Below are positions 10,540 to 61,703 of a stretch of 64,000 bases of DNA, piece by piece. Numbering within the stretch: the first letter of the stretch is position 1; each line of letters starts with the position of its first letter. Below the pieces are notes generated by a model. The model did no database searches. It saw only the letters and a list, made by a program, of their open reading frames with translations, and had not been told where the DNA came from. Source of the DNA: Geovibrio thiophilus (GTDB lineage: Bacteria > Chrysiogenota > Deferribacteres > Deferribacterales > Geovibrionaceae). Where the stretch lies: the NCBI RefSeq assembly GCF_004087915.1, contig NZ_CP035108.1:62001-126000 (forward strand). The letters run 5' to 3'. Position numbers and translations under genes: made by a program.

Positions 10540-10569
10540 TTTCTCTGCGGAGTTCGCAATGACTCAAAC

Positions 10570-10659
10570 AGTTCCATGAACGGAACTGCGCCGTACGAAG
10601 CGAAGCCGTGTTTACCAAGGCGTGAGCGTGTGCGTAAAAGGAGCAGGATGTACCCTTTT
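10570..10659 (+). repeat. Three-hairpin repeat element, copy 1 (degenerate)
   Basis: Hairpin A pairs AGTTCC (10570-10575) with GGAACT (10582-10587). The core is GCGCCGTACGAAGCGAAG (10588-10605). The B stem is eroded (GCC/GGC left). A GTGAGCGTGTGCG link leads to hairpin C, AAAAGG (10636-10641) and CCTTTT (10654-10659), with a loop containing CAGGATGTA. It lies between pirin and the yceD-fab cluster. Confidence 0.7.
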
Positions 10660-10820
10660 CTGCGGCAAGACGGATTGATCTTGACTTTCCATTTTAATCT
10701 ATATAAGATTTTCCCTCATTTTGACCGCTTGAAGTGCGCCCTGCCGAAGGGTGCTTGGAAACGGCTGAAAAACACGGTCAAAAGCCCTGACACACAGGGT
10801 TTGCGCAAAGGTTTAGGACA

Positions 10821-13657: not shown

Positions 13658-14575
13658 ATGACAAAAACCGCAGTGGTTTTTCCCGGTCAGGGCTCACAGT
13701 TCGCCGGAATGGGGAAAGATTTTTACGACAAATACGCAGAAGTACGCAAAGTTTTTGATAAAGCCGATGAAGTGCTTGGCTACAGCCTCACTTCAATTAT
13801 GTTCAACGGACCCGAAGAGGATCTCAAGCTGACCTCCAACACCCAGCCCGCTCTGCTCACCATGAGTATTGGCATTTGGGAGGCGGTGAAAAATAAAATA
13901 AAGGCTGATTATTTCGCCGGACACTCCTTAGGCGAATACTCAGCCCTCGTTGCCGCTGGCGGCATAAGCTTTGAGGACGCCGTTCTTGCGGTGCATAACA
14001 GAGGGAAATTCATGCAGGAAGCCGTGCCCGTCGGAACAGGAGCAATGGCAGCCGTCATGGGTGCTGATGACGCAATCATAGCAGATGTCTGCAAGGCGTG
14101 CAGCAAACCCGGCTCCGTTGTGGAACCCGCGAACTTCAACTGTCCCGGGCAGACTGTCGTCGCCGGAAACGCCGAAGCGGTAAACCTCTTCTGTGAAAAA
14201 ATCAAGGAAGCCGGCGCAAAAAGAGCGATCCTCCTCCCCGTGAGCGCTCCATTCCATTGCAGCCTGATGAAACCCGCTGCGGAAAAAATGGCAGCTTACC
14301 TCAAAAACATAAAAATAAACGATCTCCAAGCGCCCGTTTTCAACAATGTTAACGCAGAGATTGAAACGGACGCCGAAACAGTGTACAACTCGCTGGTTAA
14401 ACAGGTGGCAAGTCCCGTTCTCTGGACAAAATCAGTTGAAAACATGGCGGCATCAGGCGTAAACACCATAATAGAAGTCGGCGCAGGCAAAGTCCTCACC
14501 GGACTTGTGAAGAAGATCAATAAAGAAATCGAAGTCAGAAACATCGGAACCCTCGGTGACGAAGACGGAATATAG
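13658..14575 (+). CDS. fabD: Malonyl-CoA:ACP transacylase
   Basis: Loads malonate onto ACP. 305 aa from the ATG at 13658, the usual length; the longer in-frame reading from 13574 would overlap fabH and is rejected. GQGSQ near the N-terminus and the nucleophile motif GHSLGEYSAL are present. The last 21 bp around its stop codon are repeated 127 bp downstream, on the far side of a three-hairpin element. Confidence 0.96.
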   Translation: MTKTAVVFPGQGSQFAGMGKDFYDKYAEVRKVFDKADEVLGYSLTSIMFNGPEEDLKLTSNTQPALLTMSIGIWEAVKNKIKADYFAGHSLGEYSALVAAGGISFEDAVLAVHNRGKFMQEAVPVGTGAMAAVMGADDAIIADVCKACSKPGSVVEPANFNCPGQTVVAGNAEAVNLFCEKIKEAGAKRAILLPVSAPFHCSLMKPAAEKMAAYLKNIKINDLQAPVFNNVNAEIETDAETVYNSLVKQVASPVLWTKSVENMAASGVNTIIEVGAGKVLTGLVKKINKEIEVRNIGTLGDEDGI

Positions 14576-14706
14576 ACCACACAACCCCAAGGAAGGGGTT
14601 GCGCCGTGCGAAGCGAAGGATTGCTTTGCAATCCGCGAGCGGTTAAGGAAACGGACAGGATGTGCCGTTTCCGAATATAGTCAATACGAAGACGGAATAT
14701 AGACCA
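14559..14706 (+). repeat. 21-bp direct repeat of the fabD 3' end flanking a repeat element
   Basis: The 21 bases at 14559-14579 (last fabD codons, stop codon and four more bases) recur exactly at 14686-14706. The three-hairpin element lies between the two copies. The downstream copy has no reading frame. It looks like a target-site or slippage duplication created with the element. Confidence 0.85.
14583..14672 (+). repeat. Three-hairpin repeat element, copy 2 (archetype)
   Basis: Hairpin A: AACCCC/GGGGTT (14583-14600). Core: GCGCCGTGCGAAGCGAAG (14601-14618). Hairpin B: GATTGC/GCAATC with a TTT loop (14619-14633). Link CGCGAGCGG. Hairpin C: GGAAACGG/CCGTTTCC with loop ACAGGATGTG (14647-14672). 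All three stems are perfect. The gap 14576-14946 holds this element, a hairpin pair and a fragment. Confidence 0.88.
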
Positions 14707-20122: not shown

Positions 20123-22054
20123 ATGAAAAAAGTCTTACTGATTGACGACAGCGTTACCATTCACAGGGTAATAGACATCTGCCTTGACAAGGACAGGTTC
20201 ATCACGGAAAAAACCTTCTCCGCAGACGATGCAGTAATGAAGCTGAAAAACTCTCCCGCCGACATAGTTCTGCTGGATAACAAGCTCGAAGGGATTCTTC
20301 TGGGTGATTTCATCGCAAAGATCCGTTCGCTGGCTCCTGTTTCATGGATAATTCTCCTGACCGGAGCATTCGACCAGTTTGACGACAGCGACCTAGCCAG
20401 ATCCGGCGCGGACGACTACCTTTTCAAACCCTTCGATTCACAGGCAATAGATCTTAAAATAAACTACGGGCTGAATACAGCGCACCGACCTGCGGCAGCG
20501 CCAGCAATGCCGGAGCAGATTATATCCGAGGAACAGACGGAGATTCTCCCCGCTGAGGAAGAATCCCCGGCGGAGGAAGCTGCCTTCATCGACCTTCGGC
20601 AGGAGGAACCGCCCGCTGAAGAGGCTGTCCCCTCATTTGAAGAAGAATCGGCAGAGCCGGAAACCGCTGAAGAGGAAATCCCCTCCGCGGAGGATATATT
20701 CTCCGAAGACGAGCCGGAAACCGAAGAAGCCGCAGGGAAATACGGAGAAGAGGACAGCGAGGACAGCTTCCCCTTTGACGATACGGAGCCCTCAGCAGCA
20801 GTATCCGAAGAAGAGAAGGCTGAGTTGGGGAATCTTTTCGGAGATATTGAAGGTCTTGCTGACATAGCGGATATTGCTGAGCCAGAAACAGCTGAGCCCT
20901 TGGAAGAAAGAGAGGAAGAGTCCTCTAAGGCTGAAGAACCGGAAGAGGATCTCGATTCCTTCCTGAAAGATCTCGACACCGCAGAAGCTCCCGAGCTTGA
21001 AATCATAGAGGAAGAGGAGACGGTTCCCGAACCTGCGGCTGAGGATTTCAGCGGACTGCTGGAAGAGCTGGGAGAAACAGAAGAACCGGCGCCGGAAGAC
21101 ATCCCCGAATACATCATTGAGGAAGAGGAAGCTTCCGACCCCTTCTCGGGGCTTACCCTGACGGATGAAGAGGACATGTTCGCCTCACCCGAGCCGGAAG
21201 CGGAACCCGCAGCTGAGTATGTCATAGAAGAAGAAAAAAGCGATGACGGCGACATCTTCGCGAATCTCATGCAGATAAGCGTTGAAGACGTGATAGACGA
21301 TAAACCGGCACTCACGGAGGAAGAGATTCGGCAGGAAGCCGCTGAACCCGCAGAGACTGATGAGACTGATGAGACTGATGAGACTGCCCTCGATATTATC
21401 ACTGAAGGCTTTCCTGAAACAGGAATACCTGTGGACGGAGAAATAGTTGACGAACAGCAGGAAGCGGATCTTTCCGCCGATGCGATAGAGAGCATGCCCA
21501 TTGAGACGGATTTCTCCGAACTCACACCGGCTGATGAATCAACGTTTGAAGAAACCTCCGAAGAAACAGTGGAGGAGCCCGTTATAATCAGGGATGAGGA
21601 AACGGCTAATGTGATTGAGGAAGAGGTCACCTTCACTGAAGAAACACTGCCCGAACCGGAAACAGCCCCTTCTCCCGATGCAGATGCGCCTGAGGAGATC
21701 ACTCCTGAGAAAGAGGAGCTCCCCGAAGCAGAGACAGAACCCGCCGAACCGGAATTCATCACAGTAGAAGAGCCCGAAGCGGAGCCGGCGGCATTTGAGG
21801 AATTTCCGGCTGAGCAGTTCGCCCCGCTGAAAGAGATGGAAGAGGATCACGAACCTGTTAAAGCACCCGCGGTCGGACTGGCGCAGGACGAAATAAAAGA
21901 GATTGTCTACCGCTCCTTTGACAGCGGAATGTTTAAAAGCGCCATTCAGGAAGTGCTTGCGGAAAAAATGGAGGAAGTGCTGAGAGAAGTGCTTCCCGAA
22001 ATTGCCGAAATGGTTATAAGAGAAGAAATAGAGCGCCTTAAGAGAGGAGAATAA
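20123..22054 (+). CDS. Response regulator with very long acidic linker and conserved C-terminal helix
   Basis: A CheY-like receiver (1-120: LLIDDS, phosphoacceptor in VLLDNK, KPF) is followed by about 440 residues dominated by Glu, Pro and Ala with DETDET repeats, probably disordered. A C-terminal 60-residue amphipathic segment (EVLREVLPEIAEMVI, EEIERLKRGE) ends the protein. That tail resembles ones on response regulators of delta-proteobacteria, including gliding or pilus regulators, but no output domain is recognised. The start at 20123 follows GAGGAG; a GTG at 20111 is less likely. 643 aa. purM begins on the next base after its stop. Confidence 0.8.
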   Translation: MKKVLLIDDSVTIHRVIDICLDKDRFITEKTFSADDAVMKLKNSPADIVLLDNKLEGILLGDFIAKIRSLAPVSWIILLTGAFDQFDDSDLARSGADDYLFKPFDSQAIDLKINYGLNTAHRPAAAPAMPEQIISEEQTEILPAEEESPAEEAAFIDLRQEEPPAEEAVPSFEEESAEPETAEEEIPSAEDIFSEDEPETEEAAGKYGEEDSEDSFPFDDTEPSAAVSEEEKAELGNLFGDIEGLADIADIAEPETAEPLEEREEESSKAEEPEEDLDSFLKDLDTAEAPELEIIEEEETVPEPAAEDFSGLLEELGETEEPAPEDIPEYIIEEEEASDPFSGLTLTDEEDMFASPEPEAEPAAEYVIEEEKSDDGDIFANLMQISVEDVIDDKPALTEEEIRQEAAEPAETDETDETDETALDIITEGFPETGIPVDGEIVDEQQEADLSADAIESMPIETDFSELTPADESTFEETSEETVEEPVIIRDEETANVIEEEVTFTEETLPEPETAPSPDADAPEEITPEKEELPEAETEPAEPEFITVEEPEAEPAAFEEFPAEQFAPLKEMEEDHEPVKAPAVGLAQDEIKEIVYRSFDSGMFKSAIQEVLAEKMEEVLREVLPEIAEMVIREEIERLKRGE

Positions 22055-31348: not shown

Positions 31349-31826
31349 GCACCGAATGCGTTTATTATGTGCGTTATTTCAGCTGTCTTAACAACAAAAA
31401 TCCGCACATCCTGTCGGATTTTTGTACACGCTCGCGCCGAATTCTCATTCGGCTTCGCTTCGCACGGCGGGTTTCCGATCCTCGGAACCGGAGTCAAGCA
31501 CCGAATGCGTTTATTATGTGCGTTATTTCAGTTGTCTTAACAACAAAAATCCGCACATCCTGTCGGATTTTTGTACACGCTCGCGCCGAATTCTCATTCG
31601 GCTTCGCTTCGCACGGCGGGTTTCCGATCCTCGGAACCGGAGTCAAGCACCGAATGCGTTTATTATGTGCGTTATTTCAGTTGTCTTAACAACAAAAATC
31701 CGCACATCCTGTCGGATTTTTGTACACGCTCGCGCCGAATTCTCATTCGGCTTCGCTTCGCACGGCGGGTTTCCGATCCTCGGAACCGGAGTCAAGCACC
31801 GAATGCGTTTATTATGTGCGTTATTT
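31349..31826 (-). repeat. Three 149-bp tandem units: three-hairpin element plus duplicated yraN 3' end
   Basis: Exact period of 149 bp (units at 31349, 31498, 31647), with a partial fourth at 31796 that is the true yraN end. On the minus strand each unit has hairpin A (31470-31488, slightly imperfect), the core GCCGTGCGAAGCGAAG, hairpin B GCCGAAT/ATTCGGC (31436-31453), and hairpin C AAAAATCCG/CGGATTTTT with loop ACAGGATGTG (31396-31423). A 31-bp copy of the yraN 3' coding end follows each. Units are nearly identical, so the expansion is recent. The gap 31189-31791 has no gene. Confidence 0.9.
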
Positions 31827-52891: not shown

Positions 52892-53049
52892 AAAAACACC
52901 GACCTGTATGAAAAATCTTTTTTACTTTTTCTAAAACAACCCGCCCTCCGAAATGAGCAGGGAAAAGTCACAAATTATATATAGCACATGTCCGTTTTTC
53001 AAGCAGGAAAAAACAGGACAGTCAGATACTCTTGCGTCTCAACACAAAC

Positions 53050-53139
53050 GCTCCACGGATGGAGTTCCGCCGTGCGAAGCGAAGGCTTGCTCCGCAAGCC
53101 GCGAGCGCGTATCCTGAATTTCCATGGAAGAAAATTCAG
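53050..53139 (+). repeat. Three-hairpin repeat element, copy near lipoprotein (left)
   Basis: Hairpin A CTCC/GGAG with loop ACGGAT (53051-53064), core CCGCCGTGCGAAGCGAAG, hairpin B GGCTTGC/GCAAGCC (53084-53100), link GCGAGCGCGTAT, hairpin C CTGAATTT/AAATTCAG with loop CCATGGAAGA (53114-53139). Gap 52892-53328 holds this, a REP pair and a second copy. Confidence 0.85.
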
Positions 53140-53154
53140 AATTATACAAGCAGA

Positions 53155-53224
53155 GACTGTCGCGTCGCTTAGGCTCCTCGCAGTGACACTGTTGACTGTC
53201 ATTGCGAACGAAGTGAAGCAATCT
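53155..53224. repeat. REP-like palindromes (two half units)
   Basis: ACTGTCGCGTCGC and CTCCTCGCAGTGACA form one palindrome, and GTCATTGCGAACGAAGTGAAGCAATCTC forms a second. The second is close to repeats found in many unrelated bacterial genomes. They separate two three-hairpin elements. Confidence 0.65.
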
Positions 53225-53227
53225 CAT

Positions 53228-53319
53228 AACTCCACGGAGGGAGTTCCGCCGTGCGGAGCGAAGGCAGGTTTATCCTGCCGCGAGCGTGTATCCTGAATTT
53301 CCATGGAGGGAAATTCAGG
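53228..53319 (+). repeat. Three-hairpin repeat element, copy near lipoprotein (right)
   Basis: Hairpin A AACTCC/GGAGTT with loop ACGGAG (53228-53245), core CCGCCGTGCGGAGCGAAG, hairpin B GGCAGG/CCTGCC (53263-53279), link GCGAGCGTGTAT, hairpin C CCTGAATTT/AAATTCAGG with loop CCATGGAGGG (53292-53319). It lies ten bases beyond the convergent lipoprotein stop, C side first. Confidence 0.87.
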
Positions 53320-53328
53320 ATTATTAAA

Positions 53329-54216
53329 TCAGGGCCAGCATGCTTCGTATTCAGTCCTGTCGGACTCGTTGCCGTCCGTGGCGGAGGAAACAGCAAACTT
53401 AACGCAGTCTATCGTGTTCTCCCCTACAGAATACATAAAGTAAGGCACATCAACCTTTGAAAGGAAAGAGTAGCTGTCGCCCTTCATTATATAAACATTA
53501 TAAAGCCAAGCCCCCTCGGGCTCGTTCCATGATATAGTCAGAGTTCCCCTGCCGTAAACGCTTCTGAAACCGAAGGGCGCTCTGGGAACAACCTGCTTGA
53601 CGGCGAGACGGATAATCTTCTCCTCACCGGCATTGCCGTATTTGTCAAAGGGGTACATGGTTACGGTGCGGTTCTCCTTCCCTTCCATGTTCACCTCGAA
53701 GCTTTCCCTTGAGGTGCGCAGTTCAAGTCCGCCGTCTATGAAAATCTCAAAGCGCTCAAAGGGCTTATCCGCCTTGAGTGTAAAGGCGAACCTGTCTCCT
53801 GTAAGTTCTTTTATCTGCACATCGGTTATCTTGACCGGTCGGGCATATATAACAGCCTTTTTCACAGGCTGGGATTTGTTGCTGTAAACCGGGTGCAGCG
53901 CTACTATGCTGTAAACATAACGCACGTCAGGCGTCACATTATCGTCCACGAAAGCGGCGGAAGGCGGAATTTCCGCTATGTCAGCATAATCGGTGAGGCA
54001 GCCGCAGGACGGATCGAAAACAGCTCTCTGAACATTCACGGCGAAGCGCTTGTCAGCATTGCGGATAACCACACCCTGATCATTATTGAAAATACGCAGG
54101 TTCTCACCCGGGGCGGGAACAGCCTCTGTGAGCACTACGGGGTCGGTCTTTTTGCCGCAGCCTGTAAACAGAGCCAGAACAGCAATAAGTGTCAGGATAT
54201 ACTTATAGAACCTCAT
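53329..54216 (-). CDS. Lipoprotein of unknown function downstream of argH
   Basis: 295 aa with lipobox LFTGCGKK (Cys20). The GCGKKTDPV start recalls LptM-like lipoproteins that commonly follow argH or precede lysA, but this one is much longer. The rest looks like beta-rich fibronectin-type repeats ([31 protein letters not shown]). No family is assigned. It overlaps argH by 14 bases. lysA is not next to it. Confidence 0.78.
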
Positions 54217-55780: not shown

Positions 55781-55963
55781 GCATCTTCATCCGTGGAGAT
55801 GTTTTATCCGAAAAAATCCTTTATTTTATCAACTTAATACCGGCGAACCTGCGTCCTGCGGTTCGCCTGAACCGCTCGCGCCTTGCGGGGCAAGTCTTCG
55901 CTCCGCACGGCGCATCTTCATCCGTGAAGATGTTTTATCCGAAAAAATCCTTTATTTTATCAA
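55781..55963 (-). repeat. Three-hairpin element flanked by a 52-bp duplication of the dnaJ 3' end
   Basis: 55912-55963 (last nine dnaJ codons, stop and hairpin A) recurs at 55781-55832 with one change. Read on the minus strand: dnaJ end, hairpin A CATCTTC/GAAGATG with loop ACGGAT (55913-55932), core GCCGTGCGGAGCGAAG, hairpin B CTTGC/GCAAG, link GCGCGAGCG, hairpin C GGCGAACC/GGTTCGCC with loop GCAGGACGCA (55842-55867), then the duplicate. The duplicate end has no gene. Confidence 0.88.
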
Positions 55964-59133: not shown

Positions 59134-59149
59134 TACACGCGTCTGTCTT

Positions 59150-59512
59150 ATTTATTGGTTCAAAAAAGACGCGTCCTGCGCTTTTTTTCACTCGCAGCCT
59201 GCGGAGTAAAACTCCTTGCTGCTCTCGTTACGTTTGCGCTGCTCGCATTCGCTGTGCTGCGCACTCCACGCACCCATCCATGGGTGTGCTCTCGTTATAT
59301 TGCACGCATCTGTCTTATTTTGGTTCAAAAAAGACGCGTCCTGCGCTTTTTTTCACTCGCAGCCTGCGGAGTAAAACTCCTTGCCGCTCTCGTTACGTTT
59401 GCGCTGCTCGCATTCGCTGTGCTGCGCACTCCACGCACCCATCCATGGGTGTGCTCTCGTTATATTGCACGCATCTGTCTTATTTTGGTTCAAAAAAGAC
59501 GCGTCCTGCGCT
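59150..59512 (-). repeat. 165-bp tandem repeat (about 2.2 copies) of a variant three-hairpin element
   Basis: Period 165 bp (59158, 59323, 59488). On the minus strand each unit has an A-type hairpin CACCC/GGGTG with loop ATGGAT, a longer GC-rich core with GCGAATGCGAGCAGCG, a B-type hairpin GGAGTTTTACTCC, and an AAAAAAG...CTTTTTT hairpin with loop CGCAGGACGCGT. The first two units differ by a few bases only. It splits grpE from dnaK. Confidence 0.85.
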
Positions 59513-59548
59513 TCATACCATAACAAATTTGGTTTCTTTGGAAAGAGT

Positions 59549-61492: not shown

Positions 61493-61684
61493 CTGAAAAC
61501 AAAAACGCTCCCAAGGATGGGAGCGCACCGTGCGTAGTGAAGCCGCATTTCATGCGGCGCGAACGTGTATACGCCCCTGAAAACAAAAACGCTCCCAAGG
61601 ATGGGAGCCCGCCGTGCGTAGTGAAGCCGCATTTCATGCGGCGCGAACGTGTATGCCAAATTCCCATGGATGGAGAATTTGGCA
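61493..61684 (+). repeat. Tandem pair (84-bp period) of three-hairpin elements between lpxC and hrcA
   Basis: Unit 1 has A GCTCCC/GGGAGC with loop AAGGAT (61507-61524), variant core CCGTGCGTAGTGAAG, and B GCCGCAT/ATGCGGC (61542-61558). Unit 2 repeats these from 61577 and ends with hairpin C TGCCAAATTC/GAATTTGGCA, loop CCATGGATGGA (61655-61685 region). The gap 61351-61740 has no gene. Confidence 0.85.
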
Positions 61685-61703
61685 TTGTTAAGTCGAGATT
61701 CCC

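Follow-up and report, generated by a model that had tools for sequence, protein, structure and literature searches.

Dispersed repeats carrying two GGA-tipped, CsrA-type hairpins in Geovibrio thiophilus and their possible role as CsrA docking sites

The Csr sponges known so far are either single dedicated sRNAs or one mRNA leader. Among interspersed repeats, REP/BIME elements can act as 3'-end mRNA stabilizers or processing elements, and BOX of Streptococcus pneumoniae is, like the element described here, a modular intergenic repeat, with modules that appear to differ. For CsrA of E. coli, the SELEX motif is RUACARGGAUGU, and a structure-based CsrA motif reads (A/U)CANGGANG(U/A) (both quoted in PMC6692469). 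The E. coli CsrA motif obtained by CLIP-seq, AuGGAug, lies in short stem-loops, and some of the peaks were located in 3'-UTRs (PMC5694010). CsrA sites mostly act near start codons, and the 3'-UTR peaks in E. coli were without detected regulatory effect (PMC5694010).

The window, which is the whole stretch of 64,000 nucleotides analyzed here, contained copies of a dispersed structured repeat family in which each copy has two GGA-tipped (CsrA-type) hairpins, referred to as A and C. In the 164 copies parsed from the genome, the modules were arranged in the 5' to 3' order hairpin A, CGCCGTGCGNAGCGAAG, hairpin B, GCGAGCG, and hairpin C, and the stems, loops, and order were as described in the original prediction. 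In hairpin C, one base bulges out of the 3' arm, and the GGA tips of hairpins A and C are spaced about 65-70 nt apart. The 17-base core was matched 10 times in the window (≤3 mismatches) against 0.37 expected matches (Table 1). All previously listed copies were present at their places, except that the one at 61507 was incomplete, lacking hairpin C and lying in an 84-bp tandem repeat. The sequence at 59150, which had been regarded as a variant, belonged instead to a different, less abundant 165-bp tandem element having an unrelated core and the same GGA-tipped outer hairpins; such a combination of a different core with the same tips was identified at window 59136-59513 and two more loci. A palindromic repeat distinct from the element (ATTGCGAACGAAGTGAAGCAATC; window 53201-53223, plus strand) adjoined an element copy, and its loop resembled the element core in circular permutation. 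The window also contained a Guanidine-II riboswitch aptamer (RF01068; 5417-5460, minus strand) above the Rfam gathering score, and a perfect 9-bp tandem repeat (GAGACTGAT x3.8; 21353-21386) within a predicted gene.

Table 1. Element copies in the window and parts of the focal copy.
Feature	Position	Strand	Remarks
Focal element	14574-14689	+	Model R1 match; single copy; acyltransferase (FabD-like) gene on one side, SDR (FabG-like) gene on the other
Left flanking direct repeat of focal copy, ACGAAGACGGAATATAGACCA	14559-14579	+	Includes stop codon of upstream gene
Right flanking direct repeat of focal copy	14686-14706	+	
Focal hairpin A, CAACCCC-AAGGAA-GGGGTTG	14582-14601	+	GGA tip 14591-14593
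Focal 5' core, CGCCGTGCGAAGCGAAG	14602-14618	+	
Focal hairpin B, GGATTGC-TTT-GCAATCC	14618-14634	+	Without GGA; differs (swapped) between orthologues
Focal 3' core, GCGAGCG	14635-14641	+	
Focal hairpin C, GGAAACGG-ACAGGATGT-(bulge G)-CCGTTTCC	14647-14672	+	GGA tip 14658-14660
Element copy	10561-10677	+	Model R1 match; hairpin A tip ATGAAC, GGA lost
Three-element tandem array	31349-31826	-	Period 149; 31-bp flank x4
Array units	31380-31497, 31529-31646, 31678-31795	-	Model R1 matches
Element copy	53040-53156	+	Model R1 match
Element copy	53219-53335	+	Model R1 match
Element copy	55825-55940	-	Model R1 match; 3' of dnaJ-family gene; 29-bp flanking direct repeat
Incomplete copy	61502-61555	+	Hairpin C missing; part of 84-bp tandem repeat
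Element copy	61582-61699	+	Model R1 match
Second element type	59136-59513	-	Different core; 165-bp tandem unit; same GGA-tipped outer hairpins

Whole-genome copy numbers were taken from the core pattern, not from model R1. The genome (2,997,552 bases), in which the window spans C1:62001-126000, contained 315 core matches, 164 forward and 151 reverse, and a reversed-pattern control gave 2. The parsed sample covered 732 kb (about 24% of the genome), partly picked around known copies, and its 164 copies were distributed over 71 sites. Sites carried one to eight tandem copies, with more than one copy at 44 of the 71; the tandem unit consisted of the element and its flank, and the period was array-specific. 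In Rfam, no match to the element was obtained in the window at the gathering score, and nothing relevant was obtained at a lax threshold for the focal copy and an eight-copy array. Literature searches returned no report of the element. It is unnamed in the sources searched, in agreement with the original prediction, which knew of no named family of this layout.

The fixed and constrained part of the element is its GGA tips, which are the best conserved part of the hairpins. Hairpins A and C have a common tip consensus, C-A(N)GGAN-G, occurring as ANGGAN hexaloops or as ACA-GGA-TGT. When one copy per site was picked by the core alone, GGA was located in the tip of hairpin A at 54 of 71 sites, of hairpin C at 60, and of hairpin B at 2; it was missing from 17 A tips and 11 C tips. 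The strict form C(A[N]GGAN)G was found in 47 A tips and 57 C tips (summed counts, 71 sites). The conserved loops of A and C reported in the original prediction were recovered, and both proved to be the same GGA motif. In an element-blind census of intergenic hexaloop hairpins, GGA was the top triplet (87/380), while in hexaloop hairpins of coding DNA it was outside the ten commonest triplets. The intergenic excess was also present in the congener G001 (45/158) and in G003, from another genus (21/76), and was not found in G005, G012, and G020. The A and C tips agree with the CsrA/RsmE consensus CANGGANG, the CsrB-type sequence CAGGAUG, and the E. coli CLIP motif, and have the ANGGA or GGA at a hairpin tip closed by C-G that characterizes CsrA-binding elements. 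The GGA tip provides a specific functional lead, namely CsrA.

The family was also found in relatives, where the original prediction had proposed to search for it. The two congeners contained 121 and 153 core copies, and the remaining family members had 0 to 8 copies of the exact core. Relatives of the element with a diverged core were detected in further Deferribacterales genera, and G003 had dispersed repeat families of its own. In two genera of another family (g13 and g9 of f6), the copies consisted of GGCACAGGATGTGCC, a GCG-rich core, hairpin B, a GAGCG link, and hairpin C with GGA, and they often sat immediately 5' of the ribosome-binding site. At five loci from other genera (L186, L189, L190, L195, and L201), the element end abutted a ribosome-binding site and start codon. 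The elements in other genera may belong to 5' leaders. In a 15-copy multi-genus alignment, the A-tip GGA and the short core motifs AGC and GCG were invariant, and most C loops held GGA, aligned in a shifted register. The common denominator across genera is the GGA tips; model R1 includes these tips, so that its matches favor them, and the hairpin census is free of that bias. No element copies were matched in viral contigs or plasmids, and a phage or plasmid origin was dropped for this reason.

None of the 71 sampled sites lay inside a predicted gene. The typical position was after a stop codon, between genes or 5' of a terminator and mostly in sense orientation, with the core often starting 20-31 bases 3' of the stop codon. 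In the 732-kb sample, co-directional gaps held 39 sense versus 10 antisense elements (p=4e-5), and 16 of 40 convergent gaps were occupied versus 4 of 60 divergent ones (p=7e-5). A strict scan for terminators after the elements gave 9/71 sense versus 3/71 antisense, which is suggestive, and GGA hairpins taken irrespective of the core showed a weak bias (19 sense versus 11 antisense). An eight-copy array (C1:571934), initially classed as antisense, was co-oriented with a 58-codon ORF upstream on the same strand, and an intrinsic terminator was located at its end. The window sites 53040-53335 and 61502-61699 were antisense to their neighbor genes.

The genome harbored a single csrA, which adjoins fliW, and its product retains the conserved RNA-binding arginine R44 of the VHR motif (read by eye, minus strand). 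Ignoring phylogeny, each of the 16 tested genomes with the element carried csrA, and model R1 had matches in none of the four csrA-negative genomes (G013, G015, G018, and G020). No element was found in the csrA-bearing relatives G012, G017, and G033. The co-occurrence of csrA and the element is a lead, uncorrected for phylogeny.

The covariation of the stems claimed previously was significant against both controls. With 30 sequences from as many sites, 93.2% of cells were paired versus 66.5% in shuffled data, with two-sided changes in 24 of 28 pairs. In 125 model matches (alignment A3), the corresponding values were 94.2% and 64.5%, and two-sided changed cells numbered 971 versus 300. By a hand sum of the pair table, G-U pairs in A3 made up about 69 of about 254 non-Watson-Crick cells (0.27), and mismatches about 185. 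This 27% share roughly equals the expectation from one-sided mutation alone; we infer that RNA under pairing selection should be enriched in G-U, and the scarcity of G-U gives no sign of selection on the stems at the RNA level. G001 had 18-19 sites in common with the present genome (among the 19 pairs, L095 was mis-mapped through the repeat); there, flanks were about 80% identical and hairpin B was identical at one site; GGA was mostly retained in the A and C tips, and entire stems were replaced. Across sites, stem types were statistically independent between A and C and between B and C, and weakly linked between A and B. Because G-U is scarce and orthologous sites have wholly swapped stems, the covariation looks to have arisen by exchange or templating of whole stems as blocks of DNA, not from slow compensatory drift. 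We conclude that copies trade stems with one another and that stems are perhaps re-templated as well. In rRNA hairpins, template switching is described as renewing the stem and keeping the loop (PMC8794818). In neighboring tandem copies, mutation rates were compared by category, with too few changes within the element and with a flank category contaminated by array ends. The original prediction took free stems and fixed loops as implying selection on structure; this is only in part borne out: the tips are constrained, and the stems look exchanged or templated at the level of DNA.

Judged from sequence, the chances are about even that CsrA docks on the elements at mRNA 3' ends and between cistrons, with the elements forming a distributed sponge. 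The elements would be transcribed within these regions, and each copy would present its A and C tips held by the conserved middle domain (core and hairpin B). CsrA dimers would most likely act by docking on both tips, and the roughly 300 copies, many in arrays, would titrate or buffer the single CsrA alongside FliW. The stems would be renewed at the DNA level, as copies exchange them and probably also by replication templated on the hairpin, and arrays would expand from the flanking direct repeats. CsrA docking gives no explanation for the conserved middle domain, and also counting against it are the scarce G-U pairs, the sampled tips without GGA, the csrA-bearing relatives that lack elements, and the usual action of CsrA near start codons, with no regulatory effect detected for the 3'-UTR peaks in E. 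coli. We propose more tentatively that the elements may constitute a Deferribacterales-wide repeat class carrying pairs of CsrA hairpins into hundreds of mRNA ends, with the transcriptome acting as the sponge, the stems renewed, and the tips fixed.

The main rival explanation, which we regard as rather unlikely, is a selfish or neutral palindromic repeat (REP/MITE-like) forming single-stranded DNA hairpins during transposition or amplification; the GGA tips would be part of mobility recognition, and their likeness to CsrA sites coincidental. Scarce G-U and block-swapped stems favor it by indicating maintenance at the DNA level, as do the tandem arrays with array-specific periods and the upstream genes, which appear to be ordinary housekeeping genes. 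The neighbors of the window copies likewise look ordinary (Pirin, acyltransferase/FabD, UPF0102, and DnaJ). Flanking direct repeats of 12-61 bp also speak for it; they were detected at 18 of the 71 sites (10 of 27 single copies) versus 0-3 at mismatched control sites, and some were single where a sister species is without the element. The focal direct repeat was single copy in G001, where the intact element is missing, and in the reverse case, a 28-bp repeat in G001 was single in the present genome. Arrays contained n elements with n+1 flanks, which fits an insertion that duplicated its target, with unequal exchange afterwards, or possibly tandem duplication of flank and element. The lengths of the direct repeats, however, are too variable for a typical transposase. 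The Y1/RAYT-type transposase gene (PF01797) raised in the original prediction was absent from all three genomes of the genus, with positive controls, and membership in REP/RAYT was ruled out on that basis. Alignment A2 showed no conserved GTAG/GGAG tetranucleotide preceding a single hairpin, and the tips and core were conserved instead. Retro-mobility was rejected since reverse transcriptase (PF00078) was absent from the present genome and the second congener G002, and integron attC sites were rejected since the integron integrase (TIGR02249) was below the cut-off in the three genus genomes, as in all control genomes. The strong sense bias with avoidance of divergent gaps and the identical tips on differing cores in several genera also argue against a selfish repeat. 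The docking-site reading and this rival can be compatible, if a mobile repeat carries paired CsrA sites as its cargo.

Among the three congeners, a reverse transcriptase domain gene was present only in G001, as one gene (G001:C3:114810-115451). At about C1:1332400-1333100 of the present genome, two small ORFs resembling a toxin-antitoxin pair were found, which were absent at the syntenic G001 site (L110:6040-6160). The genome-wide count of 315, the sense and 3'-UTR placement, the flanking direct repeats, and the CsrA lead are additions to the original prediction.

It is improbable that the elements are 3'-end mRNA stabilizers or processing elements, blocking exonucleases or positioning RNases, with tips that bind no specific protein or a protein other than CsrA. 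Their sense orientation just 3' of stop codons or 5' of terminators and their strong hairpins would suit this role, but a fixed GGA tip is not needed for it, and the tips are most conserved while the stems turn over. We give very little credence to the larger arrays being independent CsrB-like small RNAs driven by promoters of their own and the single copies their decayed remnants, because, even though up to eight units would give about 16 GGA hairpins, the same order as the number in CsrB, most arrays lie closely 3' of a co-oriented gene, a promoter scan of the largest array was barely above shuffles, and most single copies retain both tips.

If the docking-site reading is true, a repeat family that places CsrA-type sites by the hundreds at the ends of genes would represent a new route to the target pool of a global regulator, and interspersed bacterial repeats, usually without a testable function, would gain one. 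The element is also a warning for RNA discovery, in that very strong covariation seemingly came from palindrome block exchange or templating, not from compensatory drift.

Like REP/BIME repeats mobilized by RAYT, the element comprises hundreds of intergenic palindromes in mosaic combinations 3' of genes; it differs from them in the lack of Y1 in the genus, in fixed tips rather than a stem-side tetranucleotide, and in its strong orientation bias and three distinct hairpins. The CsrA-FliW system of Campylobacter jejuni similarly combines csrA with FliW and an mRNA possibly titrating CsrA (PMC4894983), although that mRNA, flaA, offers one abundant 5' leader, compared with hundreds of 3' or intercistronic copies here (PMC4894983). 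CsrB/CsrC and RsmX/Y/Z share with the element several GGA-tipped hairpins per transcript, the CAGGAUG/ANGGAN motif, and the presence of csrA. The element has no match to their Rfam models and possesses a conserved non-GGA middle domain, and whereas these RNAs are encoded by one or a few dedicated sRNA genes, the element occurs as about 300 dispersed copies, apparently within mRNAs.
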